Positions 7,837-42,783 of a stretch of DNA of 64,000 bases are shown here, one piece after another. The stretch is taken from positions 496,001-560,000 of the forward strand of contig NZ_SPVH01000006.1 in the NCBI RefSeq assembly GCF_004614235.1. Direction: 5' to 3'. Each line of letters begins with the position of its first letter. The stretch's first letter is position 1. Below the pieces are notes generated by a model. The model was given only the letters and a program-made list of their open reading frames with translations. It made no database searches and was not told the DNA's origin. Position numbers and translations under genes: made by a program. The DNA comes from Brevundimonas intermedia (lineage in GTDB: Bacteria > Pseudomonadota > Alphaproteobacteria > Caulobacterales > Caulobacteraceae).

Positions 7837-9102
7837 ATGGCACTGGCGGAACCCATCGTGAGAAAACGCCTGACGCAGGCGGAGCTGGACCTGGTCTGCG
7901 CCCGGCATGACCGGCTGTTCCAGGCCCGCCCCGGCGGCGCCCGTGCGGTCTTCGCCTGGATGGACCTGTCGGGCCTCAGCCTGAAGGGCCGCAATCTCGC
8001 CGACGCCGATTTCGCCGCCGCCTGTTTGGAGGGCTGCGACCTGACGGGGGCCAGGCTCGACAACGCCAACTTCTTCGGCGCTGACATGCAGGACGCGATC
8101 CTGGCCGAGGCCAGCCTGCGTCGCGCGGACCTGCGCGGCGCCTGCCTGCGCGGCGCGGACCTGTCGGGCGCCGACATGTTCGAGGCCGATCTGCGCGAAG
8201 GCACCATCGCCGCCGCCGACGCCAAACTGGGCTTCAAGGTCATCGAACCGCGTCATCGCGAGGAGACCGAGGCCGTGGGCGCCAACCTGTCCGGCGCCAA
8301 TCTGCAACGCTCCAAGATGTCGGGCGTCATCGCCATGAAGGCCGACTTTTCCGGCGCGGTGATGAAGGACTGCAAGCTGGTCCGGGCCAATCTGAAACAG
8401 GCCAACTTCCGCGGCACGGACCTCGCCGGGGCCGACCTGTCCGGCGCGGACCTGTCGGGCGCGGATCTGCGCGACGCCATTCTGGTGGGCTGCAAGATGA
8501 CCATGTGGCGCGCTGACGGCGCCGACATGCAGGGCGCGCTGACGGACAACAAGTCCGCCTGCGAATCCGTGGACCGGATGCCGGCCGCCGAAATGCTGCG
8601 CGAACACGCCCGCTGGTGCGAGACCGGCGGTTCCGAGGGGCAGCCTTCGGTCTTCGACGGCGTCGATCTGCGCCCGCTGAAGTCGATCACGGGCCTGAAC
8701 CTGACCGCCCTGTCGGCCAAGGGGGCGGTGTTCTATGGCCTGGACATGGAGGGGGTGCAGTTGCAGGGCGCCCAGCTCGAAAACGCCGATCTGAGGTCCG
8801 CCAAACTGCGACGCGCCGATCTGCGCGGCGCGCGTCTGAAGGGCGCGAGGCTGAACGGCGCGGATATGCGCGAGGCGCAGCTGGGGCCGTTGCTCATCAC
8901 GGCCGATCGTCTGATGCCGGCGGATCTGACCGGCGCGGTGCTGCGCGGTGTGGACTTGTCCGGCGCCGATCTGAAGCGCGCAGTGCTGGTCGGCGCCGAC
9001 CTGGGTCGTGCCACGATGCACGGGGCCCAAATGCGTCAAGCCGACCTGACCGACGCCAATCTGACCGGCGTGCGCGGCCTGGTCGTGGACCAGGCCGCCT
9101 AA
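7837..9102 (+). CDS. Pentapeptide-repeat protein
   Basis: The 421-residue protein is mostly tandem A(D/N)LXX pentapeptides, for example ADLSGADLSGADLRDAILV. They form two blocks, about residues 40-130 plus 145-235 and 285-415, separated by a non-repeat linker with CETGGSEGQPSVFDG. Pentapeptide repeats fold into a right-handed quadrilateral beta-helix. Some family members mimic DNA and protect gyrase, but the family is functionally broad and nothing here proves that role. The N-terminal 35 residues (QAELDLVCARHDRLF) are a non-repeat cap. No signal peptide is seen. Confidence 0.85.
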   Translation: MALAEPIVRKRLTQAELDLVCARHDRLFQARPGGARAVFAWMDLSGLSLKGRNLADADFAAACLEGCDLTGARLDNANFFGADMQDAILAEASLRRADLRGACLRGADLSGADMFEADLREGTIAAADAKLGFKVIEPRHREETEAVGANLSGANLQRSKMSGVIAMKADFSGAVMKDCKLVRANLKQANFRGTDLAGADLSGADLSGADLRDAILVGCKMTMWRADGADMQGALTDNKSACESVDRMPAAEMLREHARWCETGGSEGQPSVFDGVDLRPLKSITGLNLTALSAKGAVFYGLDMEGVQLQGAQLENADLRSAKLRRADLRGARLKGARLNGADMREAQLGPLLITADRLMPADLTGAVLRGVDLSGADLKRAVLVGADLGRATMHGAQMRQADLTDANLTGVRGLVVDQAA

Positions 9103-12711: not shown

Positions 12712-12956
12712 TCGATGGAAGCTTACCCACCAAATTCAAGCCGTGACTAGCTTCTAGCAACGTTTCGTTCAGGCTGAAAGCTCCCCACCCACAGGCTTCC
12801 CAGTTTGGGCCGAGGGGGTAGTTCGGGAGTTTCCTAGTTAAAGATCGTTAGCGTGGGAACGCGACAAATTCCGACCTGCGCCATACCTGCATGGCCCGCG
12901 CTGCCAGGAGTTCACTTCGTGGGACGGCCCCGCTTCGTGGATGCCTTCGGAGCATC

Positions 12957-13376
12957 TCAAGAAGGCTTAGCTTTGCGACCTTTCGCGCCCAGCCCAATCG
13001 ACTTTGCCAGTTCCGACCGACGGGCCGAGTAGGCAGGCGACACCATCGGGTATGTGGAGGGCAGGCCATATCGATCGCGGTATTCGTTTGGCGTGATACC
13101 GTTCGCCGACAGGTGACGTTTCAGGGACTTGTAGGTGCGCCCGTCTACGAAGCTAACCAGGCCCTCATCGGTGATCGACTTCCGGATTTGGCCAGCACTG
13201 GCACGAGCGAAGATTTCTACAGCTTCCGGTTCAGGCTGGCCGACGTTCGCGAGCGCCGCATGAGTGGACGAGATCAGATCGCCGATCCGCTCGGGCGGAA
13301 GGTCGTTGTTCGACACGTAATTGGCTACGATCCCAACCGTCATGTCGAGAAGCGAGGATATTGCCTGGTCAGTCAT
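12957..13376 (-). CDS. MucR-family regulator, C-terminally shortened copy
   Basis: The 139-residue protein has the MucR layout: LLDMTVGIVANYVSNNDL at the N-terminus, a basic KSLKRHLSANGITPNEYRDR segment, then YGLPSTYPMVSPAYSARRSE. In classical Ros/MucR proteins the segment before KRHL carries zinc cysteines; here it reads FVDGRTYKSLKRHL, with none. MucR proteins are nucleoid-associated regulators of many genes. Compared with the copy at 20,943, one C/G difference creates TGA and removes 15 residues. Confidence 0.8.
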   Translation of the reverse strand: MTDQAISSLLDMTVGIVANYVSNNDLPPERIGDLISSTHAALANVGQPEPEAVEIFARASAGQIRKSITDEGLVSFVDGRTYKSLKRHLSANGITPNEYRDRYGLPSTYPMVSPAYSARRSELAKSIGLGAKGRKAKPS

Positions 13377-13453
13377 GTGGCGATGCACTTTTGGTGATGG
13401 CCGGACCCAAGCGGTTCGACATTCGATGCCCACGGTAAGCCGACCTTGCGAGC

Positions 13454-13476
13454 GTCTGCAACGGGTGGAAGCGGAC
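13454..13476 (+). repeat. Array repeat 1, short 23-bp form
   Basis: GTCTGC and GCGGAC arms flank AACGGGTGGAA. This is the minimal hairpin, with the left and right ends of the 107-bp repeat joined directly. The same form occurs at 21,486. Confidence 0.75.
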
Positions 13477-13502
13477 ACTCACTCAGCGCACCTCGGGAGC
13501 GC

Positions 13503-13721
13503 TCACTCATCGGGTTGGCGCGTTTCAACGAGGAAGCCTTGGCTGGTCGTCTGTTGCTCGAATGTGTGCGCAAGGCGACGAACTTCCCCTGCTGATCTTC
13601 CCCACGGAATGATGCTCTTACGGAAATCGACATCGGTCTCCCCCGGCCTGAAACCTCTCCGGAAGAAGATGTGCGAATCTAACCGAAACAGCTGATGAGA
13701 ATACAGCGTGTCTGGCTTCAT
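13503..13721 (-). CDS. Hypothetical 72-residue protein
   Basis: The product begins MKPDTLYSHQLFRLDSHIFF and is not recognised. It starts on the stop codon of the gene upstream (ATGA at 13,718-13,721), which suggests a translationally coupled pair within one repeat-bounded unit. It has no signal peptide or clear domain. Confidence 0.5.
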   Translation of the reverse strand: MKPDTLYSHQLFRLDSHIFFRRGFRPGETDVDFRKSIIPWGRSAGEVRRLAHTFEQQTTSQGFLVETRQPDE

Positions 13722-13942
13722 CGCTTCTTCCTGGGGCCGAGTAGCGTGAACCGATGGGCGTTCGAGAAATCCAGAACTACGGCTCTACCCGAGTTTGATT
13801 CCCCATCGCGATCGTGCACCGTGAAGGTCACCTCGGGTGCACTCGCGGCCAAAGGTGGCCAACCCATAAGGATTGCGGCCACCAAGATGATTGCCGCGCC
13901 TAGCCCAAGTAAGCCCACTGCTTTGCCAATGCGCATGATCAT
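13718..13942 (-). CDS. Hypothetical small membrane protein
   Basis: The ATG at 13,942 gives a 74-residue protein with one hydrophobic helix (AVGLLGLGAAIILVAAILMG), then a short outside domain with TFTVHDRDGESNSGRAVVLD. A longer reading frame runs through the repeat at 13,970 and is rejected as start because that part is repeat sequence. The function is unknown. It is coupled to the gene at 13,503. Confidence 0.55.
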   Translation of the reverse strand: MIMRIGKAVGLLGLGAAIILVAAILMGWPPLAASAPEVTFTVHDRDGESNSGRAVVLDFSNAHRFTLLGPRKKR

Positions 13943-13969
13943 GCAGCCAACATTGACCTCATTAAGAAT

Positions 13970-14008
13970 GTCCGCAATGGGTCGGAATGCGACAATGGCC
14001 CCAGAACG
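13970..14008 (+). repeat. Array repeat 2, left fragment
   Basis: It starts GTCCGCAATGGGTCGGAATG and is cut off before the inner GCGGAC box, beside the stop of the next minus-strand gene. It nearly matches the fragment at 22,645, including the flanking gene end. Confidence 0.7.
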
Positions 14009-14009
14009 A

Positions 14010-14363
14010 CTAGTGAACGATGGGTTGGGCGGTCTGCCGCAGCAGATCAGGGTAGTCCTCGGGGCGGCCTTGGCGAACCACAATGCTAGTTTGGCCTACT
14101 CGCTCCACTGCCCTCCGCGCCAACTCGATGCACTGTTGGTCTTGGTCATCTCCCCAGACGATATCCACCTGATTGGGCCTCGCTTGTAGTGCGGCGAACC
14201 ATCGTTCGACCATAGCCATTTCGGACATCCACATATCTTGGATCAGATAGCGGCACTGACCGTCCCGATGATCGACAGTGACTGGGTAGCCGAGCGACTG
14301 CTCCGGAACTGCCGCGCAGCCAGTGGGTAAGAGTAACAGCGCTGCGACGACGACCGGCTTCAT
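14010..14363 (-). CDS. Hypothetical lipoprotein-like secreted protein
   Basis: The 117-residue product has a hydrophobic leader MKPVVVAALLLLPTGCAAVP with a cysteine after TG, close to a lipobox though the -3 residue is proline. The mature part includes HRDGQCRYLIQDMWMSEMAM and DQDQQCIELARRAVERVGQT. The last 50 residues recur as a truncated copy at 22,685-22,837. The function is unknown; it is a single-gene unit between repeats. Confidence 0.6.
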   Translation of the reverse strand: MKPVVVAALLLLPTGCAAVPEQSLGYPVTVDHRDGQCRYLIQDMWMSEMAMVERWFAALQARPNQVDIVWGDDQDQQCIELARRAVERVGQTSIVVRQGRPEDYPDLLRQTAQPIVH

Positions 14364-14390
14364 TCCAGAAGCATCTGCCATGCGGTCAAC

Positions 14391-14497
14391 GTCCGCAATG
14401 GGTCGGTTTGCGATACTGGCATCTCGCCGGAAACCCGACATTCCGGTGACGGTCCGGAAGCGGACTCCGCGAGGTTCAGCTAGGGGTGGCAAGCGGA
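14391..14497 (+). repeat. Array repeat 3, full length (107 bp)
   Basis: The left end is GTCCGCAATGGGTCG, the inner box CCGGAAGCGGAC, and the right end CAGCTAGGGGTGGCAAGCGGA. It is very close to repeat 9 at 17,880, sharing AACCCGACATTCCGGTGACG. Confidence 0.85.
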
Positions 14498-14554
14498 AGT
14501 TGCGCTGCAGGCATTAGGCTGAAACATTGCAAGAACCTCGCAATGGAGCCGACC

Positions 14555-15022
14555 ATGCAATCTGTTTTAGCCGCTGTCGCAGCGACAATCGGGCTCAACA
14601 TTTTCGTTTTGCCAGCCTATTCCGGATGGGATGGCGCGGAGTGGGGCATGACGCCAGAACAGGTGTCAGCCGCTGTCCCCGGAGTTCGAGTTGTTCGCCG
14701 GGGAATGTTGCTGTCCGATGCGCGGAAACAGAGCGCGAGGGATGTGGAACTCTACGGCATCAGTCTCGAAGCATCGTATTTCTACAGCCCACGCGGTTTG
14801 ACCTTCATTCGTTTCGACGTGCCCTTCCGACGGTGCGCTACCCTCGTCGATGGCCTTATCGCCGCCCACGGGCAACCCGCGAACGTGAGCGACCAAGGCA
14901 TTCTCAAACTAATCACTTGGGAAGACCCGGACGCTGGCAACCGGCTGATCCTGTTGCAGTCCGCAGCAGGAATCTGTGACCTACGCATTCGGTCAATCGA
15001 AGCCGGGAACGGCGTCGGCTAA
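14555..15022 (+). CDS. Hypothetical secreted protein
   Basis: The 155-residue product has a signal peptide (MQSVLAAVAATIGLNIFVLP, cleavage near AYS). The WDGAEWGMTPEQVSAAVPG segment is reminiscent of periplasmic proteins with a WG-motif start. It is not assigned to a family. An upstream ATG at 14,543 adds four residues. The stop lies two bases before the next repeat. Confidence 0.6.
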   Translation: MQSVLAAVAATIGLNIFVLPAYSGWDGAEWGMTPEQVSAAVPGVRVVRRGMLLSDARKQSARDVELYGISLEASYFYSPRGLTFIRFDVPFRRCATLVDGLIAAHGQPANVSDQGILKLITWEDPDAGNRLILLQSAAGICDLRIRSIEAGNGVG

Positions 15023-15023
15023 A

Positions 15024-15072
15024 GTCCGCAACGGGTCGTGAACCGAAGTTCGTTTATGGGGGGGTTAGCGGA
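15024..15072 (+). repeat. Array repeat 4, shortened (49 bp)
   Basis: It has GTCCGCAACGGGTCG at the left and GGGGTTAGCGGA at the right, with most of the middle deleted. Confidence 0.7.
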
Positions 15073-15292
15073 TCGTGGGCGGGAACAAGTCGGCACGTGC
15101 CTTGTCTGTCTTTTTCATCCTACCGGCGAGGACAGCAAAGCCAACTGAAGCCGCTGCGACAACGATGGCAAACGCCGCGTTTCCAGGGTCGCCGCTGATG
15201 CCCAATAGGATCGCCAATGCCAGGGCGGCGACAGCCATGACCGCGCCTTGAACTTGGAAATATCCGAGGATGAAGGACCGGATTCGAAACAT
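15065..15292 (-). CDS. Hypothetical small membrane protein
   Basis: The 75-residue product has two hydrophobic helices (AVMAVAALALAILLGISG and AAFAIVVAAASVGFAVLAG) and a basic tail. Its TAA stop lies inside the right end of the repeat at 15,024. The function is unknown. Confidence 0.55.
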   Translation of the reverse strand: MFRIRSFILGYFQVQGAVMAVAALALAILLGISGDPGNAAFAIVVAAASVGFAVLAGRMKKTDKARADLFPPTIR

Positions 15293-15319
15293 TCGCCGAA
15301 CAGATCAGATTTCCCGACT

Positions 15320-15427
15320 GTCCGCTATGGGTCGGACCACAACATCGACACCAGCGCGAAAAGCGGACATCGGCCCCACAGCCCAAAAGCGGACGCGCCG
15401 AACTGCGGCAAGGGGTGGTAAGCTGAC
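15320..15427 (+). repeat. Array repeat 5, full length (108 bp)
   Basis: The left end is GTCCGCTATGGGTCG, the inner box AAAAGCGGAC appears twice, and the right end AGGGGTGGTAAGCTGAC is slightly diverged. Confidence 0.8.
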
Positions 15428-15471
15428 ACTTTGAATTGCAAGGTGGGCCATGCAGTCGTTGGAGCAGGGCT

Positions 15472-15999
15472 ATGATTTTAGCAGCGGTCATTGCGTTGGT
15501 TTCGGCTCAATCTTCGCCCACCACCTTGACGCTTGAGCAATGGGAGGGCTGCGCAAAATCGACCGTTTCCACATGCGACGTGCCGGGTGGAACTGACGAA
15601 TGGAAGTCGTGCCTTGAAGTAACCGACCCCATGAGCATGGAGGAATGGGACATGTGTGAGTTCGTGTCCTTTCCAGACTGCTTTCAAGACAGCCTACCCG
15701 ACGATGTTCAATCGAGCCTCAGACTTTGCGGCGCTCAACGCGCGGTCGCAGCACGAAATATTGCGATGAGTTGGACCTCTGAACAGAGCGCGTGGGGTAA
15801 TGAAGCCGGAGCGGCGCAGATGAGGTCCACTTGGGCTCGCGTTGAGCAACTCGCGATGGCCGATGCATCTGTCGATCCCTTGATGGCATCCGGAGCGCGC
15901 GTAGGAGCTATGGTGTCTGGCTTGAAAGCGATGGCGTTTATTCGGAATGCGTCTAATCAAGTCTCCCCTGCGCGAAGGGCGAATTCCACAAGAAGCTAG
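15472..15999 (+). CDS. Hypothetical secreted cysteine-containing protein
   Basis: The 175-residue product has a short signal peptide (MILAAVIALVSAQS). The region after it has several cysteines (LEQWEGCAKSTVSTCDVPGG, WKSCLEV, WDMCEFV, PDCFQD), consistent with disulfides after export. The C-terminal half is helical. It is not recognised, and is a single-gene unit in the same direction as the repeats. Confidence 0.55.
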   Translation: MILAAVIALVSAQSSPTTLTLEQWEGCAKSTVSTCDVPGGTDEWKSCLEVTDPMSMEEWDMCEFVSFPDCFQDSLPDDVQSSLRLCGAQRAVAARNIAMSWTSEQSAWGNEAGAAQMRSTWARVEQLAMADASVDPLMASGARVGAMVSGLKAMAFIRNASNQVSPARRANSTRS

Positions 16000-16011
16000 T
16001 ACCCGCTCTAG

Positions 16012-16092
16012 GTCCGCAACGGGTGGATTTCAGCCTTTAGCATCGGCCGGAAAGCAGACATGCTGGATGACCGTCAGGGGTGGTTAGCGGAC
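16012..16092 (+). repeat. Array repeat 6, internal deletion (81 bp)
   Basis: The left end GTCCGCAACGGGTGG and right end AGGGGTGGTTAGCGGAC are intact. About 26 bp of the middle are missing. Confidence 0.8.
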
Positions 16093-16117
16093 ATCGTTTT
16101 GCGATAGCGTGACGCTT

Positions 16118-16540
16118 ATGAGCGGATTTGGTTTTTTCCCACGAGACGGAGCAGGCGGGCCTTCCTCGGCGCCTATGGACTATGGATCGGCAACGGTGCG
16201 CGTAGGTGAGATGGTAGAGACCGTCTTCTGCAACCTCGCGATCTGGAGCAGCGCGGACTACGCCAGTCATTGGCGGGATGGCGCGTTGAAGTGCTTGGCG
16301 GAACAGCAGCCTCGCCTGTTTTGCACGGACCTGACCAAGCGGAATGCGACAGTCTTTGCCGCATTCCCCGAGGGTGATGGATATGCATTTGAACAGTGGG
16401 TTATTCAGCGTCGCACCTTCGCGGTGAGCGGGAAGGAAATAACCCTCAATCGTGAAGGTGACATGGTGCGCTCAGGCGGCGACGCATCGTGTTGGTGGGT
16501 AGACCGGGCGAGCATCGCCGACTTTGCCAACGCAGTCTGA
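16118..16540 (+). CDS. Hypothetical 140-residue cytoplasmic protein
   Basis: The product begins MSGFGFFPRDGAGGPSSAPM and has the aromatic-rich segments IWSSADYASHWRDGALKCL and EGDGYAFEQWVIQRR, and no signal peptide. Its size and style resemble immunity-like or DUF proteins, but I cannot assign a family. A GTG nine bases upstream is an alternative start. It ends two bases before the next repeat. Confidence 0.6.
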   Translation: MSGFGFFPRDGAGGPSSAPMDYGSATVRVGEMVETVFCNLAIWSSADYASHWRDGALKCLAEQQPRLFCTDLTKRNATVFAAFPEGDGYAFEQWVIQRRTFAVSGKEITLNREGDMVRSGGDASCWWVDRASIADFANAV

Positions 16541-16542
16541 AT

Positions 16543-16565
16543 GTCCGCGATGGGGTCGGTTTGCG
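16543..16565 (+). repeat. Array repeat 7, left fragment
   Basis: It starts GTCCGCGATGGGGTCGG, then loses similarity. The right half is absent before the duplicated gene at 16,659. Confidence 0.55.
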
Positions 16566-16658
16566 AACTTTCCACATAGCACCAAACGAGACGTCCAACT
16601 CACTACACGCCTACGCGTTCGATCGCGTCTGAGGGTTGAAGGAGGCAGGCAGGATCCT

Positions 16659-16841
16659 TCATCTCGCCTTGCGGAGCCAAACGATGCTCAGAGCGCCAGC
16701 CATGATCCCCGCGATTAGAACCGATGCGATTGCGGGTGAAAGAAGGTTCTCGCGCGCGCCGTAGAAAGCGAGGCCCGCACATAACGCGCCGCACCACGCT
16801 ATTGCCTGGAGAAGGGCGTATCCCTTTGAATGCTTCTTCAT
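16659..16841 (-). CDS. Small two-helix membrane protein, copy A
   Basis: The 60-residue product starts MKKHSKGYALLQAIAWCGAL and continues into a second hydrophobic helix ending WLRKAR. It is nearly identical to the 60-residue protein at 28,315, and flanking non-coding bases are also related, so a whole gene unit has been copied. The function is unknown. Confidence 0.65.
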   Translation of the reverse strand: MKKHSKGYALLQAIAWCGALCAGLAFYGARENLLSPAIASVLIAGIMAGALSIVWLRKAR

Positions 16842-16888
16842 GATGCCCTGCCTAGCATTTGGACCCAGGTTTCCCGCATTCAACTCAC

Positions 16889-16996
16889 GTCCGCAACGGG
16901 TCGATTTCGGTCTTGATCTTCCGCGCCGGAAACAGACGTTGGCCCCAAGGCCAGACAGCGGTCGCGGTCGACATCATCTAGGGGTGGTTTGCGGAC
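16889..16996 (+). repeat. Array repeat 8, full length (108 bp)
   Basis: Left end GTCCGCAACGGGTCG, middle GCCGGAAACAGACGTTGGCC, right end AGGGGTGGTTTGCGGAC. Confidence 0.85.
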
Positions 16997-17095
16997 GTTG
17001 GAAATCACTACTTGACTGCCCCCCTTCTGCGTAGGAGTCGGGTCGACGTTTGAGGATCGTCGTGACCTTCGCGTACGTCCGCCTGGGAGATACGG

Positions 17096-17812
17096 ATGTT
17101 CGGCGAAAAAGAGGCAAGCAAGCAGGTCTTGAACGATCTGTCTGACGACACGCTGGGCTTCGGCGGAACTGATCTACGAACGGTTCGAGACCTGCTGATT
17201 CGACCAAAGGCGGTTCTCGAAGCATGGATGGCCCACGGGCCGATGGGCGGCGGTGCTTACTCGAGGCCGCTGAAGCTCTACCTCGCTCTGAACGCCATCC
17301 TAATGCTGATTTGCTTTTTGAGAGGCGGGTTCGGCTATCTGCTGGATGCACTTCCTCCGGAACTGCTCACCAGCGTGCTCGAGCAGTCAGGGAAATCGCG
17401 AGACGCTTTCGTGGGCGACGCTGACAATTGGATGTCGCTCGTAATGGTACCCCTCACCGCTTCGCTTCTTATTGTCTTCACGACGCCCCTGTTCCGTTGG
17501 TGGGACCCCGAAGACCTTAAGTGGCGTCGCGGTGTCCGAGCCTCACTCGCCTACCTGAATGCGTGGACCGTGCTCATGCTGCCGTTCTCATGGTTCATGT
17601 ACGGCGCGAGCGCCGTAGCGATGGCATTCACGGTTCTGTTCTCCTTAATGGGGGTGGTCGCCTTCCTCCGGATGGGTAGGGGCCGCTGGTACAAGAGCTA
17701 CGGGCCGGGTGTGGGAAAGTCGCTGATCGTACTGCTCGCCATGCAAATCGTTGGCGCCATCGCTACCTGCATCGTCGTCGCCGTTGGCATATTCGCGGGA
17801 CGATTTGCTTAG
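17096..17812 (+). CDS. Hypothetical multi-pass membrane protein
   Basis: The 238-residue protein has a soluble N-terminus (LRTVRDLLIRPKAVLEAWMA) and about four transmembrane helices (LYLALNAILMLICFL, VMVPLTASLLIVFTTPLF, AVAMAFTVLFSLMGVVAFL, IVLLAMQIVGAIATCIVVAV). The layout resembles DUF3667/Yip1-like proteins, but I am not certain of the family. A good ribosome-binding site (GGGAG) precedes the ATG. It is the largest unit of the first array block. Confidence 0.65.
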   Translation: MFGEKEASKQVLNDLSDDTLGFGGTDLRTVRDLLIRPKAVLEAWMAHGPMGGGAYSRPLKLYLALNAILMLICFLRGGFGYLLDALPPELLTSVLEQSGKSRDAFVGDADNWMSLVMVPLTASLLIVFTTPLFRWWDPEDLKWRRGVRASLAYLNAWTVLMLPFSWFMYGASAVAMAFTVLFSLMGVVAFLRMGRGRWYKSYGPGVGKSLIVLLAMQIVGAIATCIVVAVGIFAGRFA

Positions 17813-17879
17813 GGCTTAGGGCAGCCTGGGTCCGCGTCAAACCCAGCGCTACTGCCACGGGTCCGCAGCGGCCGCGAAG

Positions 17880-17987
17880 GTCCGCAACGGATCGGCTTGC
17901 GAAGTTGGCGTCCCGCGGGAAACCCGACATTCCGGTGACGGTCTGAAAGCGGACTCCGCGCGGTTCAGCTAGGGGTGGTAAGCGGAC
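17880..17987 (+). repeat. Array repeat 9, full length (108 bp)
   Basis: Left end GTCCGCAACGGATCG and right end AGGGGTGGTAAGCGGAC. Extra GTCCGC boxes lie just upstream at 17,829 and 17,861, suggesting remnants of earlier copies. Very similar to repeat 3. Confidence 0.85.
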
Positions 17988-17993
17988 ATCCGG

Positions 17994-18263
17994 TCAGGTT
18001 GTCATTATTGATAAAACAAACGCCACAGCGAAGATGACGACGGTCGTTCTGGCAATCAATATCAAACACCAAGACGCTCTGAACCTTACACCGTGACGCT
18101 CGACCGTGAATAAGCGGATCGTCACCCACGGCCCGGCCCGCCAAAGGTGTTTTGTCCAGCCACCACCGTTCCAAATTGCCTCGATGGTTACCGCCAACAA
18201 GCCACTAACGATGTGGATGAAAACGGCACCGACAGCTATTTCGAAAAAGGGGAAACTGCCCAT
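17994..18263 (-). CDS. Hypothetical small membrane protein
   Basis: The 89-residue product has two to three hydrophobic segments (FFEIAVGAVFIHIVSGLLAV, CLILIARTTVVIFAVAFVLS). The ATG is preceded by AAGGGACAC, a usable ribosome-binding site. No family is recognised. It starts close to the left end of the repeat at 18,291 and ends six bases from repeat 9. Confidence 0.6.
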   Translation of the reverse strand: MGSFPFFEIAVGAVFIHIVSGLLAVTIEAIWNGGGWTKHLWRAGPWVTIRLFTVERHGVRFRASWCLILIARTTVVIFAVAFVLSIMTT

Positions 18264-18290
18264 GTGTCCCTTGTCAGATAACCGTTGAAG

Positions 18291-18397
18291 GTCTGCAATG
18301 GGTCGAATTCGGTCCTGGGCTTCGTCGCCGAAAGAGGACGTTGGCCCACTGGCCGGAAAGCGGTCCCGGTCTACGTCAGCTAGGGGTTGTTAACGGT
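18291..18397 (+). repeat. Array repeat 10, full length (107 bp)
   Basis: Left end GTCTGCAATGGGTCG, middle CGCCGAAAGAGGACGTTGGC and GGCCGGAAAGCGGTC, right end AGGGGTTGTTAACGGTC. The minus-strand gene at 18,390 ends inside it. Confidence 0.85.
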
Positions 18398-18740
18398 CGT
18401 TCCATGATCCGATCTGAACCGTCGTGATGAGGCTTCCAACGGTCAGACTGCGATAGGTTCGCTCACCGCGCCATTCGCGAAACTCTCGAAAAAGGTTCAG
18501 TCCAAAGTTATGCGCCACCTCGTTTGGCGCGTATTGCCTCAAGTCCATAAGGCTGAAGTCCGTGCCGAACGGTTCCCTGATCGCGTCAATGGCATCACCC
18601 AGATCCTCACCGGCGAGACCCAGATCGTAATAGAGTTCTGTTGTCTCGGTGATTGCGTCCTCTCTCATGGTGACGCGCTTCAGCGCGCTGACCACATGGG
18701 CGCGGATAGCATCTGCTGATCGAGCGATGTCGTCGGCCAT
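18390..18740 (-). CDS. DUF1493-like acyl-carrier-type small protein
   Basis: The 116-residue product contains the acyl-carrier-like layout seen in DUF1493 proteins: VSALKRVTMREDAITETTEL, then YYDLGLAGEDLGDAIDAI and FGTDFSLMDLRQY. There is no Asp-Ser-Leu phosphopantetheine site in the usual place. Family members often occur near lipid A or small-island genes, but no partner lies here. The start at 18,740 avoids an extension encoded by the repeat. Confidence 0.6.
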   Translation of the reverse strand: MADDIARSADAIRAHVVSALKRVTMREDAITETTELYYDLGLAGEDLGDAIDAIREPFGTDFSLMDLRQYAPNEVAHNFGLNLFREFREWRGERTYRSLTVGSLITTVQIGSWNDR

Positions 18741-18768
18741 CACCTGAGTGAACGCCAAAGGGCTAATG

Positions 18769-18875
18769 TCTGCAACGGGTCGGACCACGAAATTCGATCC
18801 GAGCCGTTAAGCCGACATTGGCGTCAGGGGCGGACATCGGACTCTGCCGACCGCTGTTTTGGGTGGAAAGCGGAC
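18769..18875 (+). repeat. Array repeat 11, full length (107 bp)
   Basis: Left end GTCTGCAACGGGTCG and right end GGGTGGAAAGCGGAC, with an inner GGGGCGGACATCGG box. The middle is more diverged than in other copies. Confidence 0.75.
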
Positions 18876-18881
18876 ATCGCC

Positions 18882-19187
18882 TTATCGATTGCCACGGGCC
18901 TCGGTATGGAAGCAGCAAACTAGAACTGTGATGTTTGCGTAGGCCATTCCCACCAACGGGATCGCCAAGCCAGCGAGAAGGATCCATCTCAGGATGGAAG
19001 AGTCCGCATAGCTAAGTGGGATTGTTTTCCCCGTGTTGAGCAGAAAAGCGCAAGCCACGCCGGGAAGAAGTGCGACCGACCAAGGGATCGAAACAGCCGG
19101 TGCGATGTAGGCTAGCCGAGCAGGCTCTGTACCCGAGCCAAGTTGGCACAGCCTCTTGTGATATCGCCCTGCAAGCGTGATGAGCAA
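18882..19187 (-). CDS. Hypothetical membrane protein
   Basis: The 101-residue frame has two to three hydrophobic segments (IPWSVALLPGVACAFLL, WILLAGLAIPLVGMAYANIT). The start is a TTG at 19,187 and is uncertain. It fills the space between two full repeats and ends seven bases from repeat 11. No family is recognised. Confidence 0.5.
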   Translation of the reverse strand: MLITLAGRYHKRLCQLGSGTEPARLAYIAPAVSIPWSVALLPGVACAFLLNTGKTIPLSYADSSILRWILLAGLAIPLVGMAYANITVLVCCFHTEARGNR

Positions 19188-19237
19188 ACCAGCTCTCCGA
19201 CCCTGTTACGGACGTTATCATCGATGGACATGATAAT

Positions 19238-19343
19238 GTCCGCAATGGGTCGTGTGCAGCCTTGGGATTCGGTGCCGAAAGCGGACGTTGGCCTTTAGGC
19301 CGGAAAGCGGTCGTCGCGTCGTCCGCCAAGGTGGAGAGCGGAC
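19238..19343 (+). repeat. Array repeat 12, full length (106 bp)
   Basis: Left end GTCCGCAATGGGTCG, middle GCCGAAAGCGGACGTTGGCC and GGCCGGAAAGCGGTC, right end AAGGTGGAGAGCGGAC. Confidence 0.85.
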
Positions 19344-19751
19344 CTAGCCTCCCAGCAAGACCGCCTCACTTCGAGTCCCGGAGGCGAGGGCACGCAGTTG
19401 AGGCACGAAGCGATCTAAGCTGGCGTAGCTAGTCAGAAGCTTGGCCTTTAGGCGACAGGTGGGGTCGTCTCTGTCGGTGATCTCGGCCCTAGCTTCAAGA
19501 GCACCCAAGGTTCCGCTGTGTCGGATGCGCAGGTGCAGCATTATGTCGTCGCCCTGCATCTGATCGTAACCCAGGACGAGTGCAGGTTCATTTGCCAGGG
19601 GATAGGTGCTCAACTCCGAGGCAAACTCCGTTAGGCTTTCCGGCGCACCCCAGAACCAGCCGCGACCTGAAAAGGTCTCGGTGTGCAGATCGAAATGTAT
19701 CTGCCAGACCCCGTCGCCATCGGGTACCACACGTATAGTCAGCTGGTTCAT
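19344..19751 (-). CDS. Hypothetical 135-residue soluble protein
   Basis: The product starts MNQLTIRVVPDGDGVWQIHF and is beta-rich (LHTETFSGRGWFWGAPESL, DDIMLHLRIRHSGTLGALEA). It resembles small uncharacterised proteins of the DUF5959/DUF6228 style, but I cannot confirm a family. Its stop abuts the right end of repeat 12, and its start lies 29 bases from repeat 13. Confidence 0.6.
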   Translation of the reverse strand: MNQLTIRVVPDGDGVWQIHFDLHTETFSGRGWFWGAPESLTEFASELSTYPLANEPALVLGYDQMQGDDIMLHLRIRHSGTLGALEARAEITDRDDPTCRLKAKLLTSYASLDRFVPQLRALASGTRSEAVLLGG

Positions 19752-19761
19752 GCAGACGAGC

Positions 19762-20037
19762 CTAAGTCTTGGGCGCAACTTCCGCTATGGGTCGGTTTCG
19801 GTCCTGAGCTTTAGCGCCGAAAGGGGCAACGACCCTCACTTGTGGACGAGCGGCCTCGGCCAGCGCGACTGACCCTCCGCGTCCTCGCCCTTTGAAGATC
19901 AGCCCGCTTTCAACCAGTGCGTCGCGCGCGCGCTCATAGGTCTCTTCCTGCCAGCCGAGCTCGTTCCGGAGATGTCCGTTCCCTGCGCTTCCACCGAGTT
20001 CCTTGAGGACCTCCAAAAACCGTTCCTGCCGTCCCAC
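19762..20037 (-). CDS. Winged-helix protein with repeat-encoded C-terminus
   Basis: The 91-residue product has a winged-helix-like fold signature (FLEVLKELGGSAGNGHLRNE, YERARDALVESGLIFKGRGR, GGSVAL), as seen at the C-terminus of some DNA methyltransferases and in small regulators. The start is GTG at 20,037 with AGGGGG upstream. The last 20 or so residues (AQDRNRPIAEVAPKT) are encoded by the array repeat, so the original end may have been replaced. Confidence 0.55.
   Translation of the reverse strand: MGRQERFLEVLKELGGSAGNGHLRNELGWQEETYERARDALVESGLIFKGRGRGGSVALAEAARPQVRVVAPFGAKAQDRNRPIAEVAPKT
19780..19834 (+). repeat. Array repeat 13, left half
   Basis: It has TCCGCTATGGGTCGGTTTCG and the inner GCCGAAAGGGGCAACG, then stops inside the winged-helix gene. 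It is the last copy of the first array block. Confidence 0.65.
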
Positions 20038-20107
20038 GACGCCCCCTGCACAACTAGAGAGGTTGATTAGCTTGGGTTATGCGGCATATGGCTGGAGGGT
20101 GTGACGC

Positions 20108-20350
20108 ATGATCCCCACTGCGACATCAGGTCTTCCCGTCGCGCTGCTGGATGTGCTCCCCCGTATGCGGACCTCCAGCCGTTTCGAGAGCGGTCGCCGC
20201 CTTTTAGCTTTGGTGGCGATGGGGAGGCTCGCGCAGGGGGATGACCGGCCAGATCCTGATCAGCTTATGCTTGCTGCGCGCGAGGCCGAGGCTGAGGCGG
20301 AGGAAGCGCTCCACCGGTTCGACGAAATCCTGGCCAAGCTGAATGTGTGA
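20108..20350 (+). CDS. Hypothetical 80-residue helical protein
   Basis: The product ends in an acidic amphipathic helix (REAEAEAEEALHRFDEILAK). It is divergent from the winged-helix gene at 19,762, which may control it. No family is recognised. Confidence 0.5.
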   Translation: MIPTATSGLPVALLDVLPRMRTSSRFESGRRLLALVAMGRLAQGDDRPDPDQLMLAAREAEAEAEEALHRFDEILAKLNV

Positions 20351-20551
20351 GGTCAACGAGGCCTGCTGCTAGTCAGTTGATCCCATTGCTTCGCCTATGC
20401 GCCGCCGATTTTCTCGTAAGGGGAGAACTGGAGGTTCCGCTGAGAGTGTGACGCGAAGGCCCTTCCCACTGGGCACCCACGAATCTCCCAAGCGGAAGCG
20501 CCTTGCGGCCCATCCCGGCCCGGCTTCAAAGCTATCGCTACTCTGAAAAGG

Positions 20552-20597
20552 TGGTGCCGCTTGCGTGACTCGAACACGCGACCCCCTCATTACGAAT
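20552..20597 (-). repeat. Variant tRNA-Thr 3'-half remnant
   Basis: It aligns with the CCA end through the anticodon loop, but the T-stem is changed on both sides (minus strand CGTG-TTCGAGT-CACG instead of GGTG-TTCGAGT-CACC), so pairing is kept. It lies 145 bp from the exact copy at 20,697, the same distance as the degenerate copy at 44,441 from the real tRNA. Confidence 0.7.
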
Positions 20598-20696
20598 GCC
20601 CCACTATGGCTAGAGGCACTCCAGCGTGGGGACGGGGTATGGACTGGGATTTGCGCGCTTTCGCGCGCTTCCGTCGTCCGTTCCTGCTGGAAGTGG

Positions 20697-20742
20697 TGGT
20701 GCCGCTTAGGTGACTCGAACACCTGACCCCATCATTACGAAT
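20697..20742 (-). repeat. att-like copy of tRNA-Thr 3' half (middle)
   Basis: These 46 bp are identical to 44,585-44,630 and 12,666-12,711. The copy forms the junction between the two island segments. Confidence 0.85.
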
Positions 20743-20942
20743 TCGATGGAAGCTTACCCACCAAATTCAAGCCGTGCCTCGCTTCTAGCAGCGTTTCGCT
20801 CAGGCTGAAAGCTCTCCACCCACAGCCTTCCCAGTTTGGGCCGAGGGGGTAGTTCGGGAGTTTCCTAGTTAAAGATCGTTAGCGCGGAAACGCGACAAAT
20901 TCCGACCTGCGCCATACCTGCATGGCCCGCGCTGCCAGGAGT

Positions 20943-21407
20943 TCACTTCGTGGGACGGCCCCGCTTCGTGGATGCCTTCGGAGCATCTGAAGAAGGCTTA
21001 GCTTTGCGACCTTTCGCGCCCAGCCCAATCGACTTTGCCAGTTCCGACCGACGGGCCGAGTAGGCAGGCGACACCATCGGGTAGGTGGAGGGCAGGCCAT
21101 ATCGATCGCGATATTCGTCTGGGGTGATCCCGTTCGACGATAGGTGGCGCTTCAACGACTTGTAGGTTCGACCGTCTAGGAAACTAACTAGACCCTCATC
21201 GACGATCGACTTCCGGATTTGGCCAGCACTGGCACGAGCGTAGATTTCGACAGCTTGCGGTTCAGGCTGGCCGACGTTCGCTAGGGCCGCATGAGTGGAC
21301 GAGATCAGATCGCCGATCCGCTCCGGTGCCAAGTTGTTGTTCGAGAGGTAGTTGGCCACGATCCCAACCGTCATGTCGAGAAGCGATGAAGTCGGCTGAT
21401 CAGTCAT
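20943..21407 (-). CDS. MucR-family regulator, full-length copy
   Basis: The 154-residue protein starts MTDQPTSSLLDMTVGIVANY, with the basic KSLKRHL segment and YGLPSTYPMVSPAYSARRSE, and a lysine/serine-rich tail ending KRGRPTK. Like copy 1 it lacks the cysteines of the Ros/MucR zinc finger. As a MucR relative it may bind AT-rich DNA and silence island genes. It is the first gene inside the second island. Confidence 0.85.
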   Translation of the reverse strand: MTDQPTSSLLDMTVGIVANYLSNNNLAPERIGDLISSTHAALANVGQPEPQAVEIYARASAGQIRKSIVDEGLVSFLDGRTYKSLKRHLSSNGITPDEYRDRYGLPSTYPMVSPAYSARRSELAKSIGLGAKGRKAKPSSDAPKASTKRGRPTK

Positions 21408-21485
21408 TTGGCGATGCGTTCCTGGCGATGGCAGAATCCCGGTTGAATCGACATTCCATGCCCACCGTAAGCCGACATTCTGAGC

Positions 21486-21509
21486 GTCTGCAATGGGTGG
21501 TTAGCGGAC
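21486..21509 (+). repeat. Array repeat 14, short 24-bp form
   Basis: GTCTGCAATGGGTGG joined directly to TTAGCGGAC. The TAG stop of the next minus-strand gene begins on its last base. Confidence 0.75.
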
Positions 21510-21871: not shown

Positions 21872-21979
21872 GTCTGCAATGGGTCGGATTACGAAGTTGG
21901 CATCCCCTCAGAAAGCTGACCTTGGCGGCCCCTGCTAGGAGCGGACCTTCCGAACGGCGACTAAGGGTGGTTAGCGGAC
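21872..21979 (+). repeat. Array repeat 15, full length (108 bp)
   Basis: Left end GTCTGCAATGGGTCG, inner GGAGCGGACCTTCC, right end AAGGGTGGTTAGCGGAC. The TAA stop of the acetyltransferase gene is the TTA of this right end. Confidence 0.85.
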
Positions 21980-22618: not shown

Positions 22619-22644
22619 TCGTCGAGGTTAGCGCGTTCGAAAAC

Positions 22645-22680
22645 GTCCGCAACGGGTCGGAATGCGACAACGGCCCCAGA
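22645..22680 (+). repeat. Array repeat 16, left fragment
   Basis: GTCCGCAACGGGTCGGAATG then truncation, matching the fragment at 13,970 and leading into the same gene end. Confidence 0.65.
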
Positions 22681-22684
22681 GCGA

Positions 22685-22837
22685 CTAGTGAACGATGGGT
22701 TGGGCGGTCTGCCGCAGCAGATCAGGGTAGTCCTCTGGGCGGCCTTGGCGAACCACAATGCTAGTTTGGGCTACTCGCTCAACTGCCCTCCGCGCCAACT
22801 CGATGCACTGTTGGTCTTGGTCAACTCCCCAAACGAT
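22685..22837 (-). pseudogene. Truncated copy of the 14,010 lipoprotein-like gene
   Basis: About 50 codons (WGVDQDQQCIELARRAVERV ... QTAQPIVH) match the C-terminus of the protein at 14,010 with only a few changes. The N-terminal two thirds, including the signal sequence, are gone and replaced by a repeat end. It is a decayed duplicate of a complete unit. Confidence 0.75.
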
Positions 22838-22838
22838 A

Positions 22839-25931: not shown

Positions 25932-26066
25932 GTCCGCTTAGGTGATAGCTGACGGTGGCCGGGCTGCCGAAAGCGGACCTTTGCCTAAACGCAACTCCCG
26001 AAGCGGCCGCTCTTAGCGTCCGCTGTGGGTCGAAAGCGGCCCCCACCGTCAGACCGGAAAGCGGAC
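25932..26066 (+). repeat. Array repeat 17, compound copy
   Basis: GTCCGCTTAGG at the left, inner GCCGAAAGCGGACCTTTGCC, then a short form GTCCGCTGTGGGTCGAAAGCGG and a further GGAAAGCGGAC. It looks like two copies or a rearranged one. Confidence 0.6.
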
Positions 26067-27412: not shown

Positions 27413-27518
27413 GTCCGCAACAGGTCGTTTCAGGCTCGGGCTTCGCCTTCCGAAGCAGACCTTGGCCGCCCTGCCGGGAAGCGTTGGCTGTGGACCTCAG
27501 CCAGGGGTGAGAAGGCAC
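27413..27518 (+). repeat. Array repeat 20, full length (106 bp)
   Basis: Left end GTCCGCAACAGGTCG, inner TTCCGAAGCAGACCTTGGCC, right end AGGGGTGAGAAGGCAC (diverged). Confidence 0.75.
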
Positions 27519-28270: not shown

Positions 28271-28314
28271 CGCTCGATCCAGTTTAAAGGGTTGAGATGA
28301 GCCAGCAGGATTCG

Positions 28315-28497
28315 TCAGGTCGCCTTGCGGAGCCAGTTGATGCTCAACGCGCCAGCCACGATCCCTGCGATTAGAACTAATGCGATTGCGGGTGAAAGAA
28401 GGTTCTCGCGGAGGCCGTAGAACGTGAGGCCCGCACATAACGCGCCGCACCACGCGATCGCCTGGAGAAGGGCGTATCCTTTTGAATGTTTCTTCAT
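28315..28497 (-). CDS. Small two-helix membrane protein, copy B
   Basis: The 60-residue product starts MKKHSKGYALLQAIAWCGAL and ends INWLRKAT. It differs from the copy at 16,659 at only a handful of residues. Both lie immediately left of a full repeat on the same strand. Confidence 0.65.
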   Translation of the reverse strand: MKKHSKGYALLQAIAWCGALCAGLTFYGLRENLLSPAIALVLIAGIVAGALSINWLRKAT

Positions 28498-28544
28498 GAT
28501 GCCCTGCCAAGCATTTGGACCGAGATTTCCTGCATTCTACCCAC

Positions 28545-28650
28545 GTCCGCAATGGGTCGATTTCGGTCTTGGCCTTCGGTGCTAGAAGCAGACCTTGAAC
28601 GCGACGCTAGAATGTAGTCACCGCCGTGGTCGCTGCGGGTGGAAACGATC
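28545..28650 (+). repeat. Array repeat 22, full length, degenerate right end
   Basis: Left end GTCCGCAATGGGTCGATTTC, inner GCTAGAAGCAGACCTTG, right end GGGTGGAAACGATC. It is the last clear copy of the array. A faint trace may lie at 29,121-29,174. Confidence 0.65.
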
Positions 28651-32933: not shown

Positions 32934-33218
32934 ATGAGGACAGTTGACAGATACCGAGCGGAAGCGACCAAGGCGCGGAAGCGGGCAAACGCTGAGCTTG
33001 ATCCTGATGCCAAGGCGGCACTCTACAGACAAGCACGTGCTTGGCTCGACCTCACGCTGACCGCCGAAATACACAGTCACCTTATGGCAGCCTTGAGAGA
33101 GGTGCGGCGGGGAGAAGTAGCGGTTCCTTTGTCTCCAAGCTGCACATCGCTTTCAAAAAATAAAAAGGGGAGCCCCGCGCGCCAGCCGAAGCCAGCGCAC
33201 GAGGCGAATATAAGCTAG
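32934..33218 (+). CDS. Hypothetical 94-residue helical protein
   Basis: The product starts MRTVDRYRAEATKARKRANA, a charged helix, and has a basic C-terminal tail. The ATG has GAGG eight bases upstream. Its stop overlaps the end of the convergent integrase gene. The family is unknown. Confidence 0.55.
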   Translation: MRTVDRYRAEATKARKRANAELDPDAKAALYRQARAWLDLTLTAEIHSHLMAALREVRRGEVAVPLSPSCTSLSKNKKGSPARQPKPAHEANIS

Positions 33219-34366
33219 GCTGCAGCCTGTTTGGCTGCGCCGGCTTCGACGGCCTTCAGCAGCGTGTCGTTGGCGAGGTGCGAATACCGCTGGGTGGACT
33301 GGTAACTTGCGTGACCCAGCACCTTGCCGACAGCGAACAGATCCACACCGCTGTTGACCATGAACGACGCTGCCGAGTGGCGCAGGTCATGAAGGCGAAG
33401 ACCCGGCAGCCGCGCCTCCCTGATCGCCCGTTGCCAGCCGTGCTTGATGGACACGAAGGGAAGGCGGGTCTCTGGATTGGGCACCAGCCAAGGGCAGTCC
33501 TTGAAGCGAGGCAGCGTCTCGATGATCGCCAATGCTGGTGTGGAAAGCGGGACGTGACGTGGCTTACCGGTCTTGCTGGTCGGGATCAGCCAGGACCGAC
33601 GTTTGACATCCACGTTCTCCCATTTGGCGTCCAGCAACTCGCGTAGCCGTGCCCCGGTGAGGAGCAGAAGGCCGACGATGTGCTGCAACTGAGAATTTTG
33701 CGACGCCGCCACAGCCTCCCTCAGCCGGGCTGCCTCCTCGGCCGACAGGAAGCGTTCACGCCCATTGTTCAGAGGCTTACGGGGGATGCCACGCGTCGGG
33801 TTCCTGTCGCTGCCCGGCACATCCCAACTGGAGCCCAGAACAAAGGATCGACCGAGCAGCACCCTCAGCTTTTCCACCGACGCCGGCGACAACCCCTTTG
33901 CCCGCTTCTCGGTCAGCCACTGGGCCACGGCCCGGCTGTTCATGTCGGTCAAGCGCGTCTTCCCCCACTTCGGGACGATATGGACGCGCATGCACATCTC
34001 GATGCTGGAGTAGGACTTCTGATCCTTAACGGACTCCAGGTGCATGGCCGCCAGTTCGCCGTAGAGCGGGATGGACTTGACCAGAGCCTTCTGCGCGCCG
34101 GGATCGCCGCCCATCACCACTTCTGAGCGGCGCTGCTGGGCATTCTTTCGGGCTGCAGCAAACGTGATGTCGTTATAGCCGCCGATCTTAAATTGCTTCT
34201 GGCGGCCGGACTGATCGGCGTAGCGCAGATAGTAGGTCTTGCCCCCGGTGGAGCGGCACTCCAGCACGAAGCCAGTAACGGTGGTGCAGTACCAGTCAGT
34301 CTTCTTCTTGCCGACCTCGCAGCCGGCATTGGTGACGAAGGCCTGAGTCAGGTGGGCTTTGGGCAT
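33215..34366 (-). CDS. Tyrosine site-specific integrase (P4 type)
   Basis: The 383-residue protein has an N-terminal DUF4102-like arm-binding domain (TQAFVTNAGCEVGKKKTDWY), a SAM-like core-binding domain, and a catalytic domain. The latter has Arg in TGARLRELLDAKW, His326-x-x-Arg329 in LHDLRHSAASF, His352 in LGHASYQ and the nucleophile Tyr361 in QRYSHLAND. It probably integrates into tRNA-Thr, whose 3' half flanks the island, although the gene is about 10 kb from the tRNA rather than beside it. The start at 34,366 has AAGGAG upstream. Confidence 0.92.
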   Translation of the reverse strand: MPKAHLTQAFVTNAGCEVGKKKTDWYCTTVTGFVLECRSTGGKTYYLRYADQSGRQKQFKIGGYNDITFAAARKNAQQRRSEVVMGGDPGAQKALVKSIPLYGELAAMHLESVKDQKSYSSIEMCMRVHIVPKWGKTRLTDMNSRAVAQWLTEKRAKGLSPASVEKLRVLLGRSFVLGSSWDVPGSDRNPTRGIPRKPLNNGRERFLSAEEAARLREAVAASQNSQLQHIVGLLLLTGARLRELLDAKWENVDVKRRSWLIPTSKTGKPRHVPLSTPALAIIETLPRFKDCPWLVPNPETRLPFVSIKHGWQRAIREARLPGLRLHDLRHSAASFMVNSGVDLFAVGKVLGHASYQSTQRYSHLANDTLLKAVEAGAAKQAAA

Positions 34367-42727: not shown

Positions 42728-42783
42728 CGCTTCCGTAGAACGTCACTATATTTCTTGGAGATACGGCTAAGATTAGCTCGCCC

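Follow-up and report, generated by a model that had tools for sequence, protein, structure and literature searches.

Integrons and the pdif, or dif, modules of Acinetobacter plasmids are the closest described systems to the arrays of small genes analysed here. In pdif modules, where modules of two kinds lie next to each other and the housekeeping XerC/XerD are used, genes are bounded by cores of about 28 bp (two arms and a 6-bp spacer) at which exchange takes place. Crossover sites of tyrosine recombinases in general are usually built of two inverted arms around a 6-bp spacer. The attC sites of integrons carry the boxes RYYYAAC ... GTTRRRY, and a repeat of about 107 bp falls within the attC length range. 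One report describes integrons as entirely absent from Alphaproteobacteria, which it calls intriguing, and takes the IntI-specific domain as a defining feature (PMC9668308); another gives them as extremely rare there, with six complete ones (PMC9024848).

Brevundimonas chromosomes appear to gain, lose and exchange small genes at docking sites, probably through a small recombinase of another kind than that of known integrons. The reading we favour, with a probability of about 0.75, is an integron-like cassette system in which a recombinase other than IntI would mediate exchange at the core spacers of sites other than attC. It draws on what can be read from sequence: site anatomy, adjacency of a recombinase gene, breakpoints at cores, shared cassettes and candidate empty platforms. 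We found no description of such a system in the open-access literature, judged mostly from the openings of abstracts.

Array features of the window

The window is the whole stretch of B. intermedia DNA analysed, 64,000 nucleotides long. Its features are listed below.

12957-13376, minus strand: mucR (ROS_MUCR) copy 1, cut short relative to copy 2 by an in-frame TGA
13417-13476, plus strand: S1, left boundary of array 1, the repeat's right half with AAAGCGGAC-like box and 23-bp core (site model and box)
13967-14163, plus strand: cassette segment with a second copy at 22642-22838 (95%) behind a different neighbour, homology starting at the core (homology)
13970-14025, plus strand: left-half site within array 1
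14391-14498, plus strand: full repeat of about 108 bp (two direct cores and two extra boxes)
15320-15427, plus strand: full repeat
16012-16092, plus strand: full repeat, shortened (81 bp)
16632-16931, plus strand: cassette segment with a second copy at 28288-28587 (86%), similarity starting around the core spacer of the upstream site (homology)
16889-16996, plus strand: full repeat
17880-17987, plus strand: full repeat
18291-18398, plus strand: full repeat
18768-18875, plus strand: full repeat
18860-19250, plus strand: cassette found at 94% identity in a recombinase-linked array of another Brevundimonas genome (L232, G016), with the same core boundaries and different neighbours (homology)
19238-19343, plus strand: full repeat
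19781-19826, plus strand: left-half site, right boundary of array 1
20943-21407, minus strand: mucR (ROS_MUCR) copy 2
21449-21509, plus strand: S2, left boundary of array 2, with a 24-bp perfect core at 21486-21509 (site model and core consensus)
21872-21979, plus strand: full repeat
22645-22700, plus strand: left-half site in array 2
26000-26066, plus strand: candidate for an empty platform without a cassette, arranged as box - core (26018-26041) - box
27413-27514, plus strand: full repeat, diverged
28545-28645, plus strand: full repeat, diverged

Short repeats beside mucR

The first-pass annotation had described, behind each mucR copy, a minimal form of the repeat in which the left arm is fused directly to the right arm. 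Both repeats lie where it placed them, and S1 (13454-13476, 23 bp) has the sequence it gave; S2 (21486-21509, 24 bp), however, is a different string, GTCTGCAATGGGTGGTTAGCGGAC. At up to three mismatches the S1 string has a single match in the window, its own, and none of 100 shuffles yielded one. The S2 core agrees with the consensus at all 21 of 21 specified positions, and that of S1 is one base shorter. Both cores lie 77-78 bp upstream of the start codon of mucR, which is on the minus strand.

The bare fusion of 23-24 bp was rejected, because a site model of 108 positions, built from 35 rows of which none came from the window, extends the match upstream: its positions 46-108 match 13417-13476 (S1) with 21.5 bits and 21449-21509 (S2) with 26.4 bits, the S2 core by itself scoring 8.3 bits. 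Moreover, a box, TAAGCCGAC, stands exactly 18 bp before the core in both. It agrees with AAAGCGGAC at 7 of 9 positions, as well as 43 of 20000 random 9-mers of the window do. S1 and S2 are thus the right-hand part of an ordinary repeat of about 108 bp, and each bounds an array on its left. Homology between the mucR flanks of S1, S2 and the B. nasdae island extends through the final base of the site and stops there, in agreement with the variable cargo predicted past the short form.

The annotation had further proposed that every island segment has its founding site next to mucR. A half-site at 41-46 bp from mucR is indeed common to S1, S2 and B. nasdae, genome G129 adds two cases at 173 and 182 bp, and some site of at least 12 bits lies within 2 kb of 11 of 41 mucR-like genes. 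Against an attachment site specific to mucR, the gene was present in none of 60 sampled loci from other Brevundimonas genomes, recombinase genes occupy its place in other genomes, and a half-site forming the left boundary of an array lies within 300 bp upstream of 5 of the 41 mucR-like genes, with none there in the other 36. Lone cores are found within arrays as well, a long way from mucR. What had been named as evidence against the proposal, a short form missing beside mucR or lying within arrays, is thus largely what was found, given the 0/60 and 5/41 counts. We regard a mucR-specific site as very improbable and have dropped mucR as a founding-site marker; it is a recurrent neighbour of the sites but not a defining one.

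Site anatomy

The elementary site is a core of 24-30 bp, in which inverted arms, AATGTCCGCNAY ... NNAGCGGACATT, flank the asymmetric 6-bp spacer GGGTSG; the 24-bp core appears to be the basic unit of exchange. Left-arm matches number 688 versus 137 for the reversed pattern and occur in 122 of 131 genomes. Near-perfect cores with GGGTGG (n = 46) have a box at -18 in 31 cases and at +40 in none, whereas cores with GGGTCG (n = 64) have it at +40 in 42 and at -18 in 2; the spacing of box and core thus reads as fixed. Box-core-box candidates numbered 13 at these distances and 2, 3, 0, 0 and 3 at five wrong spacings, although in at least two of the 13 (L091 and L104) the site is occupied and the second box is there by chance. 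The empty docking site appears to be a box-core-box element of about 70 bp, with AAAGCGGAC boxes at -18 and +40. Of the attI-like founding site first proposed, the position at the start of arrays holds, but this longer form would take the place of the short one as the empty site. Folding gave nothing firm: pairing covariation supporting a folded site was absent among 38 sites, and the fold z-scores of seven sequences ranged from -2.6 to +1.3.

The 208-aa tyrosine recombinase

A gene for a tyrosine recombinase of 208 aa is apparently intact in 30 of the 131 genomes. In 28 of these 30 loci a half-site follows its stop codon on the same strand, and in 27 the core spacer lies 39-51 bp past the stop; L266 and L277 showed no match to the site model beside the gene. 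The protein matches PF00589 with 70.3 bits and has no recognised N-terminal core-binding domain. R59, K87, H156, R159, H182 and Y191, which we take to be the catalytic residues, are invariant across six recombinases, giving the R, K, HxxR, H/W, Y set of a tyrosine recombinase catalytic domain. An excess of sites in recombinase-bearing genomes was not borne out: left arms averaged 6.1 with an intact gene (n = 30) versus 5.1 without one (n = 83, p = 0.098), and 4.3 in the 18 genomes with fragments only.

Probable exchange at cores

In the recombinase-linked loci, conservation reaches as far as the spacer GGGTSG, past which the cargo differs. Fifty-nine locus pairs were at least 70% alike over the 30 bp leading up to the core from the left; 58 of them showed less than 45% ungapped identity 40-240 bp beyond it. 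Homology ended no more than 20 bp from a core in each of the two loci in 348 of 1509 cases, from locus pairs that are not independent, whereas 500 displaced sets averaged 7.6 such cases and never exceeded 18. In seven homologous blocks each of the four ends lies no more than 25 bp from a core, one of them being the 94% match of window 18860-19250 to the array of G016. Inter-site units, counted between 120 and 2200 bp, have a median of 446 bp, of which the longest ORF spans a median of 89%.

According to the favoured reading, small gene cassettes flanked by core half-sites of the same orientation would enter a platform at the core spacer. Insertion would divide the platform in two, with the short form of S1 and S2 on the left and another part on the right, and the repeat of about 108 bp would be the right part of one platform, a 10-bp spacer and the left part of the next. 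The most likely exchange enzyme is the 208-aa recombinase, whose gene ends immediately before the platform, and cassettes may travel in circular form, each carrying a single core. In the window, the arrays linked to mucR could be integrase-less derivatives, served in trans or now frozen.

The same sites might instead be passive repeats, with RecA reshuffling arrays at their longest identical stretches. They are abundant and alike, they are also present in genomes without the recombinase, and cassettes are duplicated within one window. However, the breakpoints centre on the 6-bp spacer of the 24-bp core though the adjoining parts of the site differ, the recombinase gene abuts the site in nearly all its loci, and the distance of box and core is fixed; moreover, the identical stretch of a core is too short for efficient RecA exchange. 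We consider plain homologous recombination decidedly unlikely. Somewhat less so, although still unlikely, are non-autonomous transposable units, MITE- or IS200/IS605-like with hairpin ends, the long repeat being the junction of tandem units. Units of a right half, a cassette and a left half are indeed found singly at numerous loci whose flanks are unrelated, 40 of 64 without an internal full site; their ends are sharp, at site-model positions 64 and 53, and two arrays (L095 and L092), in keeping with the favoured reading as well, are missing at the orthologous sites of relatives, L095 lying within a REP-like palindrome. Yet the two ends of one unit are incoherent (r = 0.014, p = 0.39, n = 82) as opposed to the halves of a single full site (r = 0.30, p < 0.0005, n = 63), internal cores appear to be used for exchange, and inspection of the flank table by eye showed no target duplication. 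Likewise, no coherence was seen between the half-sites that open and close an array (r = 0.06, p = 0.30, n = 20). Movement solely as right half, gene and left half was discarded, since unit and array ends are incoherent and homologous blocks run core to core. Exchange between cores nevertheless does not explain how whole platforms spread to many chromosomal places with unrelated flanks, which the transposable-unit model may still describe. By eye, several other array flanks seem to carry palindromes similar to that at L095.

Comparison with known systems

As in integrons, the platform site of Brevundimonas adjoins a tyrosine recombinase gene (28/30 loci) and variable cassettes, mostly of a single ORF, lie beyond (58/59 pairs differ), with one site orientation per array and composite two-core sites of similar length (about 108 bp). 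These likenesses would suit a true integron served by IntI in trans, the repeat being an unusual attC. Such membership is hardly credible: the IntI model TIGR02249 exceeded its cut-off in one of 131 genomes (below it, all genomes and all 14 controls match), it is not among the matches of the 208-aa recombinase at E <= 0.001, the RYYYAAC / GTTRRRY boxes were found in none of 45 full sites, and pairing covariation is lacking. Unlike in integrons, moreover, the platform lies behind the 3' end of the recombinase gene, the exchange point would be the 6-bp spacer of a palindromic core, the longest ORFs more often face the platform (92 of 139), and many single-cassette platforms are scattered over chromosomes.

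Recombinase-less clusters and apparently empty platforms recall CALIN and In0 elements. The window arrays have two or more sites without a recombinase nearby, and they resemble integrase-less (CALIN) clusters because no 208-aa recombinase was found in the window genome at E <= 1e-15; the likeness is one of analogy only, as the sites are not attC. With pdif modules, compared by description only, Brevundimonas shares genes bounded by tyrosine-recombinase-type cores; unlike them, it has a recombinase dedicated to the system, cores in direct orientation, and extra boxes whose distance is fixed. The mucR arrays of the window sit inside tandem tRNA-linked genomic islands with a phage-type integrase (tRNA-Thr at 44585-44660, tRNA 3' copies, integrase at 33215-34534). 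These islands use tRNA ends and their own 439-aa integrase for insertion, whereas the cassette sites are separate.

If correct, the favoured reading would mean that gene capture has been solved independently by a cassette system distinct from integrons, which has a small recombinase of its own and sites without the boxes on which integron searches rely. The cassettes also form a varied pool of small genes. The system opens to direct test the catalyst, the 6-bp crossover point and the sufficiency of a 208-aa recombinase without a recognised core-binding domain. We think it somewhat probable that Alphaproteobacteria have an independent, non-homologous counterpart of integrons, a minimal catalytic-domain recombinase with a box-core-box platform that would capture and shuffle cassettes genus-wide, plasmid relatives perhaps driving similar systems with other sites.

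Relatives of the recombinase

Relatives with 60-80% identity are on 47 plasmid records, and at E <= 1e-40 relatives occur in 14 of 385 alphaproteobacterial genomes. Generality outside Brevundimonas was not upheld: no same-strand site lies directly behind the genes of relatives in 18 loci (three have weak 7-8-bit matches elsewhere), and 12 longer loci from other alphaproteobacterial genera show no clear arrays. Five of these 12 have one to three repeat pairs, and L303 has direct repeats of 40-61 bp. An Asticcacaulis plasmid copy is followed, within 4 kb behind the gene, by one 20-nt repeat in two copies.

Half-sites and the short forms

According to sequence data, the repeat system of Brevundimonas would work like an integron, yet two tested features set it apart from true integrons, and we put the probability that it is an independent counterpart of integrons at about 60%. 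The elements of the window needed here are as follows.

12665, 20545 and 20690 (approximate), copies of the tRNA-Thr 3' end
13454-13476, short form S1
21486-21509, short form S2
26018, core of a candidate empty platform
33215-34534, island integrase
44585-44660, tRNA-Thr

The full repeat (about 108 bp) is proposed to join the right part of one platform to the left part of the next. It has two direct cores, each of 24-30 bp with inverted arms around a GGGTSG spacer, and two boxes with the motif AAAGCGGAC. The first-pass annotation had described S1 and S2 as bare elements of 23-24 bp. They are instead half-sites: in a model of nine full repeats of the window (106-108 bp, one diverged), S2 matched positions 46-108 with 18.6 bits and S1 positions 47-107 with 13.7 bits. 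In a second model, built from 35 repeats of other genomes and none from the window, both matched positions 46-108, S2 with 26.4 bits and S1 with 21.5, while the S2 core by itself gave 8.3 bits. In the full-repeat consensus GGGTCG belongs to the left arm and GGGTGG to the right one; both S1 and S2 carry GGGTGG. Spacing was counted on 115 cores with at least 19 of 21 positions matched, from 62 of 117 loci, accepting boxes of 6/9 or better. Among GGGTGG cores, 31 of 46 have the box exactly 18 bp upstream and none has it exactly 40 bp downstream; among GGGTCG cores the counts at these two distances are 2 of 64 upstream and 42 of 64 downstream. The upstream box is present at S1 and S2.

Arrays in the genus and their neighbours

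The strict long-repeat pattern was matched in 14 of 131 Brevundimonas genomes and the left-arm pattern in 122, with 688 matches versus 137 for a reversed control. Loci were fetched around mucR relatives and long-repeat matches, together with 60 regions drawn from the left-arm matches in the order listed; of these regions, 58 contained a site match. Arrays usually open with a right half and close with a left one. Among 64 such elements parsed, 40 have no internal full repeat, two of these being just 74 bp long; lone halves numbered 21 (right) and 16 (left). The information profile places the element ends at model positions 64 and 53, with no signal outside. The arrays L092 and L095 are absent from the orthologous sites of relatives and thus arrays are gained or lost at chromosomal loci; L095 sits inside a REP/BIME-like palindrome that G010 carries without the array. 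By eye, such intergenic palindromes flank the arrays L095, L091, L093, L102 and L103. In the draft genome G009, several contig ends fall about 50-110 bp from a site, as if sites break assemblies.

It had been suggested that mucR is the constant neighbour of the short form. This did not hold across the genus: none of the 60 sampled loci contains a mucR gene (tblastn, E <= 1e-8), and only 5 of 41 mucR-like genes (40 loci) are preceded by a right half at a distance of 300 bp or less, namely those at S1, at S2, in B. nasdae and two in G129; 11 of 41 have any site within 2 kb. In L061 and L063 the right half may directly follow the 3' end of another mucR-like gene.

In other genomes, the place of mucR beside the right half is occupied by a gene for a tyrosine recombinase of about 208 aa. 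Eight of the 60 sampled loci show this gene ending next to the right half, one copy being truncated at the end of a contig and another degenerate. The protein matches PF00589; XerC-type models match it far under their cut-offs, and among solved structures its nearest relatives are XerA/XerC/XerD-like (E no better than 2e-4). At E <= 1e-15, with fragments counted, 48 of 131 genomes have it, and it was not found in the window genome; left-arm numbers are nearly as high in genomes without it. In 30 genomes the match runs without a stop for 190 residues or more. In 28 of 30 loci, all but L266 and L277, the half-site starts -10 to +24 nt from the stop codon on the same strand; the distance from the stop to the core spacer is 39-51 bp in 27 of the 30, all but L253, L274 and L277.

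The array L096 (G055) begins shortly after a gene for an Xer-like recombinase below the TIGR02249 cut-off (G055:C90:67087-67308), probably the chromosomal XerC/D. Recombinase relatives outside Brevundimonas showed no clear arrays at the examined loci. In G518 (L283/L295), two copies of a distant relative share 58 bp after the stop, hairpin included, and then diverge, possibly the same architecture with a different site sequence. On the Asticcacaulis plasmid pASDW145_1 (L300/L301), the genes behind a relative encode RelBE, DUF2199 and small hypothetical proteins, a cargo that is cassette-like with no recognisable arrays.

Proposed exchange at the core and candidate empty sites

Among recombinase loci, 59 pairs have similar sequence over the 30 bp to the left of the core, and in 58 of them ungapped identity beyond the core is below 45%. 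In these 58 pairs base-wise identity is 0.76-1.0 within GGGTSG, about 0.3 at the next two bases, 0.5-0.88 across the shared arm AGCGGAC and 0.14-0.5 past it. The mucR-flank homology of S1, S2 and B. nasdae stops at the last base of the site, and the cassette common to L091 and L104 starts exactly at GGGTSG. Among 1509 homology ends in the retrieved loci, 348 have a core no more than 20 bp away at both loci, many of them from recombinase-recombinase pairs and not independent; the 500 displaced sets averaged 7.6 and never exceeded 18. A further 39 ends meet a core in one locus only. In seven homologous blocks, one inside the single locus L191, each of the four ends falls 25 bp or less from a core. 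Another of the seven, at 18860-19250 of the window, shares 94% identity with a cassette of G016 (L232) that belongs to a recombinase-linked array; the site type differs on each side.

Coherence was seen between both halves of a full site (r = 0.30, n=63) but was absent between the ends of a unit (r = 0.014, n=82). Positions 91-108 showed no coherence with other parts, except 27-53 (r = 0.25, p <= 0.01). The pattern would broadly fit exchange of segments between successive crossover points. A second process would be required for solo platforms whose flanks are unrelated.

An empty platform is expected to have the form box-core-box if exchange takes place at the core. Thirteen candidates were found in 1.72 Mb, whereas five wrong spacings gave 2, 3, 0, 0 and 3. 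Of the thirteen, at least two (L091, L104) are occupied sites with a second box by chance, and two (L060, L061) are the 74-bp elements. One candidate, L273, adjoins a recombinase gene, another is that of the window with its core at 26018, and L256 looks like a further recombinase-linked empty platform. The founding site is thus probably an empty box-core-box of about 70-74 bp, and the 23-24-bp form, earlier read as that site, probably belongs to one half of a site that is occupied.

Cargo and the island of the window

Units between sites (120-2200 bp taken, n=144) have a median length of 446 bp, and the longest ORF (>=60 aa, n=139) fills, in the median, 89% of its unit. Counting only this ORF per unit, 92 of 139 oppose the site direction, a tentative skew. 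The 139 proteins comprise 40 Pfam families, none with more than two members among the 25 listed, including NUDIX, GNAT, barstar, a T6SS immunity domain and one DDE transposase.

In the window, a tandem genomic island adjoins tRNA-Thr, and the tRNA copies mark at least two tandem segments. On the minus strand, mucR lies just inside the tRNA copies at 12665 and 20690, with the short form 77-78 bp upstream of its start in both cases; among named genomes the closest relative found is that of B. nasdae, at 86% identity, in line with a Brevundimonas origin of the window. Compared with copy 2, copy 1 (12915-13376) carries an in-frame TGA and terminates sooner. The clear repeats share one orientation from 13.4 to 29.2 kb. 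Next to the tRNA, 39533-44273 carries genes for an Eco57I/MmeI-like methylase (1064 aa) and a DUF6602 protein and a weak SMODS-like ORF, possibly an island defence cluster. Coding repeats with a 15-nt period occupy 7837-9102, whose product, by its look, we take to be a pentapeptide-repeat protein.
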